This document shows positions 33,989-40,493 of a DNA stretch of 59,330 nt, one piece after another. Below the pieces are notes generated by a model that worked only from the letters and a program-made list of their open reading frames with translations, was not told the origin of the DNA and did not search any database. This DNA comes from a bacterium (GTDB taxonomy: Bacteria > Sysuimicrobiota > Sysuimicrobiia > Sysuimicrobiales > Segetimicrobiaceae): positions 1-59,330 of the forward strand of contig DATGFS010000044.1 of the NCBI GenBank assembly GCA_035308905.1, given 5' to 3'. A program made the position numbers and the translations under genes. Within the stretch, counting starts at the first letter, position 1. Each line of letters starts with the position of its first letter.

Positions 33989-36900
33989 TCATCTGAAGTT
34001 CCGGCTCGCGACGTCCGGAACACGCGGTGCAAGACGCGGCCGCCAGAACTCCCGCACGATGACGTGCACGATCTCGTGCTGCCGCTGGATGCGGCCCGTG
34101 ACGCCGAGGAACACCACGGTGCGGGCCAGCCGCGCGAATTCATCCATCACGGCCGGCCAGACGACCAGGTTGACGAAACCGGTCTCATCTTCGAGCGTCA
34201 TGAACGTGACGCCCGACGCGGTGCCCGGCGTCTGCCGGCAGATGACGATCCCCGCGTAGCGGACGGCGGCGCCGTCCCGCATCGCCAGCACCGCCCGGGC
34301 CTCCGGCAGGCCCGCCTCGCGCAGCGCGGAGCGCATCGGCGAGAGCGGATGCCCGCGGGTGCTGTGCGCCGACGCCCGGTAGTCCCACGCGATCTCTTCG
34401 GAGGCGCCGAGCCCGTCGAACAGCGGCGACGGCTCGCGGACCTGGACGGGCAGCGCGATGTCGCGGCGGCGCGCGAGCGCCCGCGCGTCCCACAGCGCCG
34501 TCCGGCGGTCGACGCCCAGCGCCTCGAAGGCGCCGCTCTCGGCAATCTCCACGAGCGAGCCCGCGTCGAGCCGGGTACGGCGGATCAGGTCGTCGAGGGA
34601 CCGAAACGGCTGGACCGCCCGCGCCGCCGCCAGCCGCCGGCCGTCGTCTTCGGCGAGTCCCTTGACGTAGCGAAGCCCCATCCGGACGGCGTGAGCCCAC
34701 GGCCGCGCGGAGGGAGGGGCGGCAGACGTCACCGCGACGGAGCCGGACACGGGAACCGGCTCGAGCGTGCAGTCCCAGCCGCTCACCGTGACGTCGATCG
34801 GACGCACCTCGACGCCGTGCCGCTTCGCGTCGTCGACGATCGTAGACGGCGCGTAGAATCCCATCGGCTGCGCGTTGAGCAGCCCGCACGTGAACTCCGG
34901 ATGATAGTGGCACTTGAGATATCCTGAAGCGTAGGCGATCAGTGCGAAACTAGCAGCATGCGAATTATGAACGATAAGGTCGTTCGCGAGGAAATTATGA
35001 TCGCCCTCGATATGAAGGTCGTAAGTCTCCTCTTCACCGAGCGACTCGACCGCCGTGATTTCGTCCCAGTAGATATCCGAGGTTCCAAGCCGGAGAAGTG
35101 GCGGCGACTTGAAGTAATCACCGAGACGCTTGACCACCCACCTGCGAAAACCTCGCTTCTGACTCACGCGGCCATAGATTTCCCGCATACCCAAACCAGT
35201 CGCTTGAGCCACATCCTTCCATCGCACACCGCTTCGATCGTATTCGCGCCGGATCATAGCTCGCACCGCAATTGGCACGATGTCATGTGACATTCGCCCG
35301 CCGACGTTTCCATTGCGGTCTGTCTGAAATGTCGCCGCGATTTGCGCGGTTCTTCGCTTTGTAGGGTCCAGGAACAACCGGCCGATTTGCTTGTTGAAAC
35401 GGATCACATTCAATGCCCCTGTGATAAGAACAATAAAGATTGTCACAAACCGGTTTCGGTAAGGCCGTGTGTGCGTAGTCAATCGAGAGACGATTCCAAG
35501 TCTTAGCAATAGGTGCTGGACCTGTTCGGCGAGTTGCCGGGATACGGTATCGTACGTTGCGCGGGATCCATGGGTAATGGAAACATGTCCATCACCTTCC
35601 CATAGCCTCGCAAGAAGCAGAGCCAGATCGGTATTCGCCAATTCAAAAACTTCGTCCGGCAAACGCTTCTTGCGGGCCCCAATATTGCGAAGATCTAGAC
35701 GGTCGGCCCACTCAAGCGCCCCACGCCGGCGCCCCATCGACGGAAGTCGACGCGCGGAGGCGATGCGGTCGCCCGGACGCAGTTCATCCAAGCGCCGCCA
35801 CCCGTCCATGGTCAGGAACGGATGCGTTGCCGTTGCAACGACAGAACGCCCCAATGTGGTCCGAAGACAAAAGACCGGTTTCCGGCCGCTACGCATTATA
35901 TGAAGCACCTGTCGCCTACGGATCCGCAGGTCTGAATCGCAGACCAACGTCGTGTTGAGCCGATCCGAATCGCGCGCCGCCTCTTCGATTCTTATCCACC
36001 GCCCTGTAGTCGCATCAATAACCCGCGTATCTCCACCGACGCATTGCGGGAATCCATATTCGCCGAACCCTTTGATCTGAGCAAACACCCGTTCCGCCAT
36101 CTCTTGCGTCACGCCTTTGGCGATCATCGCGGACACGAGTCGGTCGTGGTGACGCTCCAGCCGTCCCGAACGCCGCCACGCCGCCATGTCGCGGCGCAAT
36201 TGATCCGCCTCGCCCGGCGAGTAATCGGCGGCCACCATCGCGATGCGGATCACCTGTTCCTGGAAAATCGGCACGCCGAGCGTTTTGGCCAGCACGGGCT
36301 CGAGCGACGGATGCGGATACTCGACCGGCTCCGCGCCGGCGCGCCGGCGGAGATACGGATGCACCATCCCGCCGACGATCGGCCCGGGCCGCACGATCGA
36401 GATCTGCACGACAAGATCGTCGTAGGTCGTAGGACGCAGGCGCGGCAGCATCGACATCTGCGCGCGGCTCTCCACCTGAAAGACGCCGATGGTGTCGGCG
36501 CGCGACATCATCTCGTACGCCTCACGGTCGCCTTCGGGCAGTGTCGCCATCGACAGCGCACGGCCGCCGGCCGTCCGAACCCCCTGGTCCTCGAGCAGCC
36601 GGAACGCGATGTCGAGGTGCGAGAGCGCCCCGAGCGCGAGCACGTCGACTTTGAAGAGGCCGATGCCTTCGACGCTGTCCTTGTCCCACTGGATCACGGT
36701 GCGACCGGGCATCGTCGCGTTCTCGACCGGCACGAGCTGCGACACCGGCTCGTGGCCGAGCAGAAAGCCGCCCGGATGGATGGAGAGATGCCGGGGCAGA
36801 TCCTGCATCTCCGCGGCGAGCCGGACAAGGTGCCGATGGGCCGGCCGCGCCGGATCGAGACCGGCGTCGCCGAGCAGCTTCGAGGTGACCTCGTCCTCGT

Positions 36901-38221
36901 GCCAGACGAGCTTCGCGACCCGGTCGAGCGCCACGAGCGGGAGCCCCAGCGCCTTGCCGGCGTCGCGCACCGCCGACCGGAACCGGTACCGGATGACGTT
37001 GGCGACCATCGCCGCGCGGTCGCGGCCGTAGGTCTCGTAGATCCACTGGATGACTTCTTCCCGCCGGTTGTGCTGGACGTCGAGGTCGATATCCGGCGGC
37101 TCGGCCCGCTCGCGCGAGAGAAAGCGTTCGAACAACAGGTCCGTCCGCACCGGGTTCACCGCCGTGATGCCGAGGCAGTAGCAGACCGCGGAGTTGGCCG
37201 CGGACCCGCGCCCCTGACAGAGGATGCCGTGCGCGCGGCAGTACCGGACGATCTCGTGCATGGTGAGAAAGTATCCGCCGTAGTCGAGGTCGCCGATGAT
37301 CACGAGCTCTCGATCGAGCTGCGCGGCGACCTCCGGCGGCACGCGGCCGCCGTACCGCTCCGCCGCGCCGGCAAACGTGAGGGTCCGCAGCCACGCCGAC
37401 GACGTCGTGCCCTCCGGCAGGCGTTCGAGCGGATACCGGTACCGCAACTCGGTAAGCGCGAACGTACACCGCTCGGCGATCTCACGGGTCCGCGCGACCG
37501 CGTCCGGATCGTCGGCGAACAGCGTTCCGAACGCGTCCGCGTCCTTGAGCGCGTGCTCGGCGTTCGGCTTGATGCGCGTGCCGGCGGACGGCAGGTCGAT
37601 CCTGTGCCGGATGCACGTGAGGACGTCTTGGAGCGGACGGCGCGACGGCGTATGGTACAGCACCTCGTGCGCCGCGACGACCGGCAGCCCGTACCGCGCC
37701 GCGCGGTCCCGCAGCCGGCGCTCCTGAGACACCTCGAGGTCCCGACGGTGCCGTGAGGCGACCGCGTACAGCCGGTCGCCGAACGCGTCGCGCAAGACGT
37801 CCGCCGCCTCATCCGGATCGGAGCCGGCGGCCGCCAGCAGGCTCGCCTCCCCGCCCCACAGCGCGACGAGCCCCGCGGCGTGCGCGGCGACTTCCCGCCA
37901 CGACACGCGGCTTTCGCCCTTCGGCGAACGCAGACGGCCCGCCGTCAAGAGACGGCAGAGGTTGGCATAGCCGCCCCGATCCGCGGCGAGGAGCAGCAGC
38001 GTCGAGTCCCCGGCGACCGTGACCTGCGCGCCCGTGATCAGCCGGACTCCGCGCTCCCGGGCGGCGAGATGCGCCTCCACGACCCCGTACACGCCGTCGC
38101 GGTCGGTCACCGCCAATGCTGTGAGGCCGTACCCGGCCGCCGCCTCGAGCAATTCTTCGGGGGACGAAGCGCCTTCGAGGAACGAAAAGTGCGTCTTGCA
38201 CCACAGCGGGGTGTAGCTCAT
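33989..38221 (-). CDS. dnaE2: Error-prone DNA polymerase DnaE2 (ImuC) containing an intein
   Basis: The precursor has 1410 residues. Without the intein (residues 727-1086) it has about 1050, normal for DnaE2. The PHP domain begins WCKTHFSFLEGASSPEELL. The polymerase core has QGRGSAANSAVCYCLGIT, PPDIDLDVQHNRREEVIQW and LFKVDVLALGALSHL, with the catalytic Asp residues in place. The C-terminal OB domain has VTFMTLEDETGFVNLVVWP. Replicative DnaE proteins are longer and carry clamp- and tau-binding tails absent here. It is the translesion polymerase of the SOS mutasome with ImuA and ImuB. The start is ATG 38221, or 38227, just after the imuB stop. Confidence 0.93.
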   Translation of the reverse strand: MSYTPLWCKTHFSFLEGASSPEELLEAAAGYGLTALAVTDRDGVYGVVEAHLAARERGVRLITGAQVTVAGDSTLLLLAADRGGYANLCRLLTAGRLRSPKGESRVSWREVAAHAAGLVALWGGEASLLAAAGSDPDEAADVLRDAFGDRLYAVASRHRRDLEVSQERRLRDRAARYGLPVVAAHEVLYHTPSRRPLQDVLTCIRHRIDLPSAGTRIKPNAEHALKDADAFGTLFADDPDAVARTREIAERCTFALTELRYRYPLERLPEGTTSSAWLRTLTFAGAAERYGGRVPPEVAAQLDRELVIIGDLDYGGYFLTMHEIVRYCRAHGILCQGRGSAANSAVCYCLGITAVNPVRTDLLFERFLSRERAEPPDIDLDVQHNRREEVIQWIYETYGRDRAAMVANVIRYRFRSAVRDAGKALGLPLVALDRVAKLVWHEDEVTSKLLGDAGLDPARPAHRHLVRLAAEMQDLPRHLSIHPGGFLLGHEPVSQLVPVENATMPGRTVIQWDKDSVEGIGLFKVDVLALGALSHLDIAFRLLEDQGVRTAGGRALSMATLPEGDREAYEMMSRADTIGVFQVESRAQMSMLPRLRPTTYDDLVVQISIVRPGPIVGGMVHPYLRRRAGAEPVEYPHPSLEPVLAKTLGVPIFQEQVIRIAMVAADYSPGEADQLRRDMAAWRRSGRLERHHDRLVSAMIAKGVTQEMAERVFAQIKGFGEYGFPQCVGGDTRVIDATTGRWIRIEEAARDSDRLNTTLVCDSDLRIRRRQVLHIMRSGRKPVFCLRTTLGRSVVATATHPFLTMDGWRRLDELRPGDRIASARRLPSMGRRRGALEWADRLDLRNIGARKKRLPDEVFELANTDLALLLARLWEGDGHVSITHGSRATYDTVSRQLAEQVQHLLLRLGIVSRLTTHTRPYRNRFVTIFIVLITGALNVIRFNKQIGRLFLDPTKRRTAQIAATFQTDRNGNVGGRMSHDIVPIAVRAMIRREYDRSGVRWKDVAQATGLGMREIYGRVSQKRGFRRWVVKRLGDYFKSPPLLRLGTSDIYWDEITAVESLGEEETYDLHIEGDHNFLANDLIVHNSHAASFALIAYASGYLKCHYHPEFTCGLLNAQPMGFYAPSTIVDDAKRHGVEVRPIDVTVSGWDCTLEPVPVSGSVAVTSAAPPSARPWAHAVRMGLRYVKGLAEDDGRRLAAARAVQPFRSLDDLIRRTRLDAGSLVEIAESGAFEALGVDRRTALWDARALARRRDIALPVQVREPSPLFDGLGASEEIAWDYRASAHSTRGHPLSPMRSALREAGLPEARAVLAMRDGAAVRYAGIVICRQTPGTASGVTFMTLEDETGFVNLVVWPAVMDEFARLARTVVFLGVTGRIQRQHEIVHVIVREFWRPRLAPRVPDVASRNFR
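34964..36043 (-). other. DnaE2 intein with LAGLIDADG-type endonuclease domain
   Basis: An in-frame insertion of 360 codons with all splicing blocks. Block A starts CVGGDTRVIDATTG with Cys1. Block B is TATHPFLTMDGW (TxxH). Blocks F and G are TYDLHIEGDHNFLANDLIVHN-like at the C-terminus, ending His-Asn, with Ser as the +1 residue. In the middle, LLLARLWEGDGHVSI followed by QHLLLRLGIVSRLT fits the first half of a LAGLIDADG (DOD) homing endonuclease; a second motif is not obvious. The host exons join as EYGFPQ/SHAASFAL, the conserved DnaE motif. GC is plainly lower (near half) than the surrounding very GC-rich DNA, a mark of recent transfer. Confidence 0.95.
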
Positions 38222-38231
38222 GCCCATCCGC

Positions 38232-39713
38232 TCATTCCACCCGCCCGTGGAGATACCAGCAGCGGCGCACCTGATCGTAGAACACCCACCACAGCTCTCC
38301 CTCTGCGCCTTCCATAAAATAGTAGGCACGATGCGCCTCGCGCACCCCGCCTTCGCGGGGCGGGGCGGCCCACCATCCGCCGGATATGATGAACGGCCCC
38401 GCGACGGGAGGTGCTTGGGCCTGAAACGGCATCGGCCGCGTGAAGATCCGCCGAACGAGCGGCCGTGTCTCGAGCCGGCGGGGCCGTGCTGAAGACAAAT
38501 GCGCCATGGGCTCCCATCCGAACCGCGCCTCGGGCAAATGCCCGTCCCGCAGCACCGCGCACCGCACTCCCTCGTCGCCGTACCGTGCGCGCAGCCGGTC
38601 GATGGCGCGGGTGCCGGCCTCGAGATTGCGCGCCGGCCGTTCGCCCCGCGCCAGACGGGGATGCTCCGCCCAGAGGGCGAGTTGCTCGGGCGCGGCAGGG
38701 ACGCCGGCGGCGTCCGCGCAGATCTCGGTGACGCCGGCGGCGATCCGGACGGTTTCCATGCGCAGGCGCACGAGGTCGGCCAGCCGCACCGCATCGAGCG
38801 TCGGGGATGCGGGACGGATGACCTGCGCGGCGGCCCACTCCTTCCCAAGCCGCAGGCGTAGATCGAGCGCGGCGAGCGCCTGTCCTCGCGACGCCAGCCG
38901 TGCCAGCAGCGGATGCAGAATGTGCTTGACGATGAACAGGAGACGCTGTGCGTCGGCCTCCGGCGCATCGAGCATCACATGACGGCGCACCGGGTCGATC
39001 GCGGGGCGCGGCGCAAGCGGCGACCACAGATCTCCGGATGCCTGCCGGTGGAGACGTTCCGCCGCCGGCCCGAAGCGCTCCATCAACCCGCCGGCCGGCA
39101 GCCGGAGCAGATCGTCCACCGTCCGCACGCCGAGCCGTCCGAGCGCCTCGAGCATCTCCGGCGGCAGGTGAAGGTCGCGCAGCAAGACACACCGGGCGGC
39201 GGTGCGCTCTTCGTCCGGATCCTTGAACACCCGGATGCCGCGGGCCGCCCGCGCCGCCGCGTACGTGCCGAAGCGCGTGAAACCCACGACGACCACCGCG
39301 TCGTACCCGGCGCGCGCCAGATCGCTCCGAATCCCCTCCGCCCATCCGTCCAGCGACGCGTGCAGACGATCGAGGCCCGACGCATCGAGCCAAAACACGC
39401 CCGGTTCGTCCGGGGCCGGCTCCACATCGGGAGAAAAACGGCGCAGTCTGCCTGCGACCGCATCGACGGCGCGGACGATGTCCGCCGGCGCAACGACCGC
39501 GGCCCGAAGGTCGGGGACGATCGCGAGCGCCGACCCGTAGCGCAGCCCCGGGGCGACGCCGCCTTCCCGCGCCGGCGCGTTGACCCAGAGCACGGGGCTC
39601 TGCGGCAGATCTTCCGCGACGACCGCGCTGGGACGCCGCCGCCACGCCGGGTGATCGCGCAACAGCAGCTGCAGCGGAAGCGCCGGGAGTTCAGCGCAGG
39701 CCAGCCGCTCCAC
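38232..39713 (-). CDS. imuB: ImuB, inactive Y-family polymerase adaptor
   Basis: About 493 residues with the Y-family (DinB/UmuC-like) fold but lacking the catalytic acids. Where active enzymes have DxDxFFAxVE it has ACAELPALPLQLLLRDHPAW, and in place of SxDExxLD it has FWLDASGLDRLH. The HhH region LGRLGVRTVDDLLRLPAG and a C-terminal tail ending YLHGRVE are typical of ImuB. It bridges ImuA, the beta clamp and DnaE2. I chose the GTG at 39713, preceded by GGAAG, overlapping imuA by 23 bp; an ATG at 39728 is the alternative. Its stop lies 4-10 bp before dnaE2. Confidence 0.9.
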   Translation of the reverse strand: MERLACAELPALPLQLLLRDHPAWRRRPSAVVAEDLPQSPVLWVNAPAREGGVAPGLRYGSALAIVPDLRAAVVAPADIVRAVDAVAGRLRRFSPDVEPAPDEPGVFWLDASGLDRLHASLDGWAEGIRSDLARAGYDAVVVVGFTRFGTYAAARAARGIRVFKDPDEERTAARCVLLRDLHLPPEMLEALGRLGVRTVDDLLRLPAGGLMERFGPAAERLHRQASGDLWSPLAPRPAIDPVRRHVMLDAPEADAQRLLFIVKHILHPLLARLASRGQALAALDLRLRLGKEWAAAQVIRPASPTLDAVRLADLVRLRMETVRIAAGVTEICADAAGVPAAPEQLALWAEHPRLARGERPARNLEAGTRAIDRLRARYGDEGVRCAVLRDGHLPEARFGWEPMAHLSSARPRRLETRPLVRRIFTRPMPFQAQAPPVAGPFIISGGWWAAPPREGGVREAHRAYYFMEGAEGELWWVFYDQVRRCWYLHGRVE

Positions 39714-40356
39714 GCCGCACTTCCACATGCTGCCAGACCGGTCCACGATGTTTGTCTTTCAGGGCCTCCACCCCGCAGTCGAATCGATCGGCGCGTGCCC
39801 GGCGCCGCCGGGCACGCGCGTAAACGGAGATGAGCGACCCAAGCGACCCGGGTGATGCCGCCGGCGGCTCGGTCAGAAACATCATCGCGGTCTGGTGACG
39901 CCGGGCGAGGCCCGCGAGGCGCGCGAGCGCCGTCGACGGGATCGCCGGAGGAACGCCAAGATCGGCGAGAATGAGGCCGAACCCGCCGGACCGCAGGAGC
40001 AGATCGGCCGCGGACAGCGCCGCGGTCACACCGGGGACCCGTACAATGGGCAGTGCCGCGAGATCGACTCCGTTGTCGTGGGCGTCGGGCGGGTAGAACA
40101 GCGACGGTGCAGCGGAACCGGCCGGCGGCCGGGCGCCCGCCGGATGGAGGGTAATCCACGCCGCCGGTTCTTCCGCTTGTTGGGCCTCGAGGATTATGGA
40201 AAACGCAAGCGTGAGCACGGCGGAGTCGCCGGCGCCTTCGAGCTGCACAAGCCGGCCGGCCAGCCGCTCGAGACACCATCCATCCTCGCGCAGAAGCGCC
40301 CCACCGGAGGCATTGAACCGAGGATCGTGAACCGGACTGGCCAGCGAGACGACCAC
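39691..40356 (-). CDS. imuA: ImuA-like RecA-fold protein of the SOS mutasome
   Basis: About 221 residues with a RecA-like core. The nucleotide-binding loop is degenerate: LVQLEGAGDSAVLTLA stands where a GxxxxGKT would be. Later strands include GFGLILADLG and HQTAMMFLTE, and the C-terminus is basic (ARARRRRARADRFD). ImuA homologues pair with ImuB and DnaE2 for damage-induced mutagenesis. The start is GTG 40356, with AAGGGG 9 bases upstream. This places the gene just downstream of the LexA-box promoter. Longer in-frame versions would run through that promoter and are rejected. Confidence 0.85.
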   Translation of the reverse strand: MVVSLASPVHDPRFNASGGALLREDGWCLERLAGRLVQLEGAGDSAVLTLAFSIILEAQQAEEPAAWITLHPAGARPPAGSAAPSLFYPPDAHDNGVDLAALPIVRVPGVTAALSAADLLLRSGGFGLILADLGVPPAIPSTALARLAGLARRHQTAMMFLTEPPAASPGSLGSLISVYARARRRRARADRFDCGVEALKDKHRGPVWQHVEVRRGAAGLR

Positions 40357-40388
40357 CGCGAAGATCCCCTTGAGATTGTGGTGCTTTG

Positions 40389-40418
40389 AGGATAGCGAAC
40401 ATATGTTCGTTATGTCAA
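40389..40418 (-). promoter_or_regulatory. imuA promoter with embedded SOS (LexA) box
   Basis: On the minus strand TTGACA (40418 to 40413) and TATCCT (40394 to 40389) are spaced 18 bp. The spacer contains a perfect palindrome CGAACATATGTTCG at 40396-40409, which fits the Gram-positive LexA/DinR consensus CGAAC-N4-GTTCG. LexA bound here would sit between the -35 and -10 and block transcription until DNA damage. It controls imuA-imuB-dnaE2 and may also affect the divergent CsbD-like gene. Confidence 0.92.
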
Positions 40419-40493
40419 CCGAACGAACAGAAGATCCTGAGCCGGGGGAAATCACCGGTAATCCATTAAATTGCCAGCCCGGAAGGTGGCGGT

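Follow-up and report, generated by a model that had tools for sequence, protein, structure and literature searches.

According to its sequence and a structure model, the window (the whole stretch of DNA analysed here, 59,330 nucleotides) contains a class 1 intein with a Hint splicing domain, located on the minus strand at 34964-36043 inside the gene of the error-prone polymerase DnaE2. It is very probably a homing-derived intein which excises itself from DnaE2 and which has lost the first motif of its endonuclease by a deletion. In every defining trait that could be tested it is a standard intein, and as an element it is an ordinary mobile one; host gene and site are without report in the open-access literature that was searched.

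Anatomy and fold of the intein

The insert comprises 360 codons with zero stops between FPQ and SHAASFA, and its boundaries read FGEYGFPQ/CVGGDTRV...FLANDLIVHN/SHAASFA (slashes mark the junctions), the N-terminal extein ending with FGEYGFPQ and the C-terminal extein resuming at SHAASFALIAYA. An initial annotation of this DNA had described an insert of 360 codons that begins with Cys, carries TxxH, DOD-type and HNF-type blocks and ends with His-Asn followed by Ser, which proved to be exact to the base. It had also noticed that the flanks join at a conserved DnaE motif, and this EYGFPx/SHAASFA junction is indeed intact around the insert. The drop in GC content it reported is equally real, the insert having 0.559, its exteins 0.704 and the window as a whole 0.706; the corresponding GC3 is 0.589 versus 0.88 in the exteins.

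The N-terminal splicing part (residues 1-104; 35732-36043, minus strand) matches the DnaB intein 1mi8 over residues 2-103 and has complete blocks A and B, namely Cys1 and the TxxH of block B (T71-x-x-H74 in ATATHP; 35822-35833, minus strand), whose H74 is invariant among 27 DnaE2 inteins. The C-terminal splicing part (residues 313-360; 34964-35107, minus strand) was delimited by translation, alignment and PDB match, and its block F/G is complete as well, with D342, HNFLAND and the terminal His359-Asn360, followed by Ser+1. Hint matches are abundant: the insert is recognized by Pfam Intein_splicing (PF14890, E = 7.6e-24) next to LAGLIDADG_3 (E = 7.2e-17), and both NCBIfam models, intein_Nterm (TIGR01445, 6e-8) and intein_Cterm (TIGR01443, 1.4e-5), exceed their cut-offs. 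Moreover, an AlphaFold2 model computed from the alignment of the 27 DnaE2 inteins reached a pLDDT of 90.6, and a Foldseek search with it retrieved 7qss, an intein with homing endonuclease, at E = 5.4e-16, besides 1dq3, 6frg and 4o1r. The model resembles inteins with homing endonuclease (7qss) and also DnaB mini-inteins (6frg, 4o1r, 1mi8). Profiles, structure model and the empty sites described below all bear out the assignment of an intein in DnaE2 that the initial annotation had made.

By sequence, the top relative in the PDB is the Synechocystis DnaB mini-intein 1mi8 (1.1e-27), and DnaB inteins (1mi8; NCBIfam PRK07773) are the nearest solved and profiled relatives for both halves of the splicing domain as well as for the endonuclease part. 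They share the Cys1 start and the HN end, but differ in host protein and site, and the P-loop DnaB inteins of the lineage form their own branch (support 100). The cyanobacterial split DnaE inteins (Ssp and Npu DnaE) reside like the window intein in a C-family polymerase, whereas in sequence they resemble it weakly (2keq, E = 0.066). Their host is the replicative DnaE, they are divided between two genes, their +1 residue is Cys and they lack an endonuclease; the insertion point, AEY/CFNKSH, precedes the position equivalent to the DnaE2 site by three residues. In some cyanobacterial papers "DnaE2" designates merely one part of the split DnaE (PMC3901139).

The imuA-imuB-dnaE2 cassette and its SOS box

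On the minus strand a frame without stop runs from 38968 to 33989, in which DnaE2 coding begins at about 38221. Summed over the extein pieces, this dnaE2 (imuC; 33989-38221) scores 1275.7 bits with the NCBIfam model PRK05672 for error-prone DNA polymerase (cut-off 939), and judged by this match DnaE2 is complete apart from the intein. Adjacent to it and on the same strand are imuB (38232-39746), which is Y-family-like (Pfam IMS, 3e-7), and an open frame for imuA (39691-40455), assigned by gene order and by an NCBIfam ImuA match of 1.7e-5 that is below the curated cut-off. All three genes of the cassette are present, DnaE2 and IMS being clear and ImuA weak but in place.

The promoter region of imuA contains a perfect CGAACATATGTTCG box (40396-40409) between TTGACA and TATCCT; this type of LexA box is that of Gram-positive bacteria. 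Upstream of the orthologous cassettes of four relatives (G001, G002, G012, G013) GAACNNNNGTTC boxes are found as well. Genome-wide, the strict box pattern occurs at 12 sites versus one for the reversed control; for the window alone, 18 of 100 shuffled sequences contain it by chance, so that it is position and recurrence which carry weight. The genome also encodes two LexA homologs. From the box in the imuA promoter region and its recurrence upstream of orthologous cassettes, the designation as an SOS polymerase made at the outset can be upheld by inference, and LexA/SOS control of the cassette is likely. The box falls inside the longest imuA open frame, and therefore the true imuA start is probably located downstream of it. 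The genome has a second, identical CGAACATATGTTCG copy at another locus, close to an agmatinase-like frame (L127; G000:C59:31449-31462, G000 being the genome of the window).

Empty and occupied sites within the phylum

The phylum sample consisted of 43 genomes, all of one order, with 14 DnaE2s above the curated cut-off. Three of these carry an insert at the exact site, namely the window, G005 (219 aa) and G013 (438 aa), and a search for the junction pattern over the phylum genomes returned the same three inserts and none further. The site is uninterrupted in the other 11 relatives, which comprise the same-genus species G001 and G002 plus nine more, and these two other species of the genus lack close kin of the window intein. 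A native DnaE2 domain, one way in which the first assignment could have failed, is ruled out by the empty sites in close relatives. The DnaE2 extein tree needs four changes of state, all forced by starred branches, which means that gain, loss or both recurred, and presence and absence among sister species argue that the host does not need the intein. The dnaE2 genes of G003 and G004 (L075, L076) have FPEAH instead of FPxSH; Ala at +1 is unable to act as splicing nucleophile, and thus these alleles may resist invasion.

DnaE2 inteins beyond the phylum

The DNA pattern FG[DE]YGFPxCxxG was searched over 84,980 species genomes and gave 28 matches, a count that is a lower bound because the pattern demands particular residues. 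All 28 (L085-L112) belong to DnaE2 genes in which an intein begins at this site, and they are distributed over Pseudomonadota (Proteobacteria), Myxococcota (Myxococcales, Deltaproteobacteria), Acidobacteriota, Rokubacteria (Rokuibacteriota) and Armatimonadota, the Armatimonadota match being the same intein as that of G013. In 25 of them the sequence can be read to the C-terminal junction HN/SH, whereas the other three run off the end of the available DNA. They agree with the window intein in site, family and junctions (FPx/C...HN/SH) and are 47-59% identical to it over aligned positions; unlike it, most of the longer ones (~420 aa) have both LAGLIDADG regions, and mini-inteins make up 12 of the 25 complete copies. 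Together with the window intein and that of G005 this makes 27 complete copies, which are orthologous by sequence comparison, with 13 endonuclease-free mini-inteins (140-219 aa) and 14 longer forms (mostly ~422 aa).

The catalytic residues C1, H74, H359, N360 and S+1 are kept in all 27 complete copies, the 13 mini-inteins included, and the dN/dS of the splicing domain is 0.09-0.38 between related pairs. In a splicing-domain tree the DnaE2 inteins occupy one side of an unstarred branch (support 77) that separates them from 15 inteins which the same lineage carries in other genes (DnaB, NrdJ, ThyX, UvrB, ATPase). The three DnaE2 inteins of the phylum cluster together (support 87). Few branches of this tree are starred; the inteins mostly cluster by host phylum. 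It is likely from these comparisons that the DnaE2 inteins are one old family specific to this gene, and their patchy occurrence over at least five phyla fits a mobile element.

Candidate sources outside the family were rejected. The DnaE2 junction pattern had no match in IMG/VR, and the matches obtained from phages and plasmids are remote inteins that occupy different genes or sites; a phage or plasmid origin was rejected accordingly. A DnaE intein on a Paenarthrobacter plasmid is inserted at a different site (GVF/C...VVHN/CFQE) and is not same-site kin. The DnaB intein of the own genome sits on a separate branch of the intein tree and was dismissed as donor. This 499-aa intein (L026; G000:C41:22618-24114) resides in the DnaB P-loop (GK/C...HN/T), and the genome has another of 448 aa in a vitamin-B12-type ribonucleotide reductase (L027; G000:C50:78903-80075). 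The lineage is intein-rich in general (L035, L037, L038, L039, L040, L041), with inteins in UvrB, ThyX, an ATPase B-type subunit, a sugar-nucleotide epimerase and two in one ribonucleotide reductase (hosts named by eye); the UvrB intein of a relative lies in the P-loop (Walker A) and apparently starts with Ser.

The endonuclease remnant

Residues 108-312 (35108-35722, minus strand) are the remnant of a homing endonuclease, which Pfam LAGLIDADG_3 recognizes over residues 141-221. The longer orthologs have two LAGLIDADG regions, with a motif 1 like VLADLIAEGN and a motif 2 like LLARLWEGDG. Compared with the full-length orthologs of ~420 aa, the window intein lacks 71 aa in a clean gap that keeps the frame and takes out motif 1, and alignment with 13 longer orthologs puts the deletion point between residues 107 and 108 (35722-35723, minus strand). 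Motif 2 (LALLLARLWEGDG, residues 140-152; 35588-35626, minus strand) and the trailing subdomain are intact, so the window copy has one motif where a complete enzyme of this type has two. The endonuclease domain announced by the initial annotation is therefore only half borne out, its first motif having gone with the deletion. A further decaying endonuclease is seen in a DnaE2 intein of 374 aa (L090:5677-6798), in which both motifs are changed (LAAWLAAGN, LWERAG).

Judged by the loss of the first motif, the endonuclease of the window intein is probably dead and this copy immobile. Related full-length pairs show a dN/dS of ~0.10-0.15 in the endonuclease part, as estimated by a rough counting method, which indicates purifying selection and suggests that the endonuclease is probably active elsewhere and was recently broken here. 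This selection in relatives, together with the acidic residues retained in the remaining motif and the frame that has stayed open, could also be read as a sign that the window intein still homes, its single motif dimerizing like one-motif homing endonucleases and cutting empty dnaE2 alleles. We consider this very unlikely, as exactly the motif 1 region is missing here, whereas all 13 other family inteins with endonuclease sequence keep it.

Proposed history and alternative readings

We propose that the intein stems from a homing intein specific to the conserved DnaE2 site EYGFPx/SHAASFA, which would have spread through DnaE2 genes by means of a two-motif LAGLIDADG endonuclease until, in this copy, the in-frame deletion removed the first motif. 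Upon expression of the imuA-imuB-dnaE2 cassette a DnaE2 precursor would be produced, from which the Hint domain is predicted to excise itself by an acyl shift at Cys1, transfer to Ser+1 and cyclization of Asn360, yielding the uninterrupted polymerase. We infer that this splicing takes place in vivo and that DnaE2 activity depends on it. The intein would persist because its loss must be exact and its splicing is good enough. Inteins are known to favour conserved positions in their hosts, at which an imprecise loss does damage (PMC2814812), and this is enough to account for persistence.

That the insert instead does not splice and inactivates DnaE2 is highly improbable: DnaE2 is generally dispensable for growth and a broken copy would be tolerable, but neither junction nor any of the splicing residues is damaged, and the profile score of the exteins is that of a full error-prone polymerase. 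An intein that splices could still have been turned into a regulatory switch, a form of the post-translational control of mutagenesis that the initial annotation had considered. Oxidative or DNA-damage conditions would then slow or release splicing, for instance via a disulfide between Cys1 and Cys35, and active DnaE2 would arise under chosen conditions only. The window intein has three cysteines (1, 35 and 59), and alignments place the non-catalytic Cys35 (35939-35941, minus strand) in 25 of the 27 DnaE2 inteins, across phyla, and in none of the 15 other inteins of the lineage. A precedent exists in DnaBi1 of Mycobacterium smegmatis, where oxidation reversibly blocks splicing via a disulfide of the catalytic cysteine (PMC6195587), and both the SOS box on the host operon and the retention of 13 of the 27 as mini-inteins, without endonuclease, agree with such a role. 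However, the two same-genus species and most relatives do with an uninterrupted DnaE2, Cys35 may simply be inherited by shared ancestry as a family residue, and two DnaE2 inteins have Ser in its place. The conservation of Cys35 is thus only a lead to a redox function, and a switch in the window intein appears unlikely. Somewhat less likely still is the wider claim that SOS mutagenesis is widely subject to a redox- or damage-gated switch formed by DnaE2 inteins, in which Cys35 would pair with the catalytic Cys1 and keep the polymerase an inactive precursor until conditions shift. The self-excising, homing-derived intein with a deleted first endonuclease motif remains our preferred reading.

Significance

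No description of a DnaE2 intein was found in the open-access literature on inteins together with DnaE2, ImuB, ImuC, mutasome or error-prone DNA polymerase; subscription literature or intein databases may list one. Two large polymerase surveys excised inteins prior to analysis and did not give their locations. Inteins usually reside in essential genes. A family in a damage-induced and generally dispensable polymerase raises the question of whether its splicing motifs have stayed intact through the host's need for DnaE2 or because the intein was put to use. If the latter applied in the form of a switch, it would explain the persistence of mini-inteins in a gene whose counterparts in sister species are uninterrupted. 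The 27 complete copies, mini and long, together with the empty alleles of sister species are a ready comparison set, and the conserved LexA-type box and Cys35 make splicing control of mutagenesis testable.
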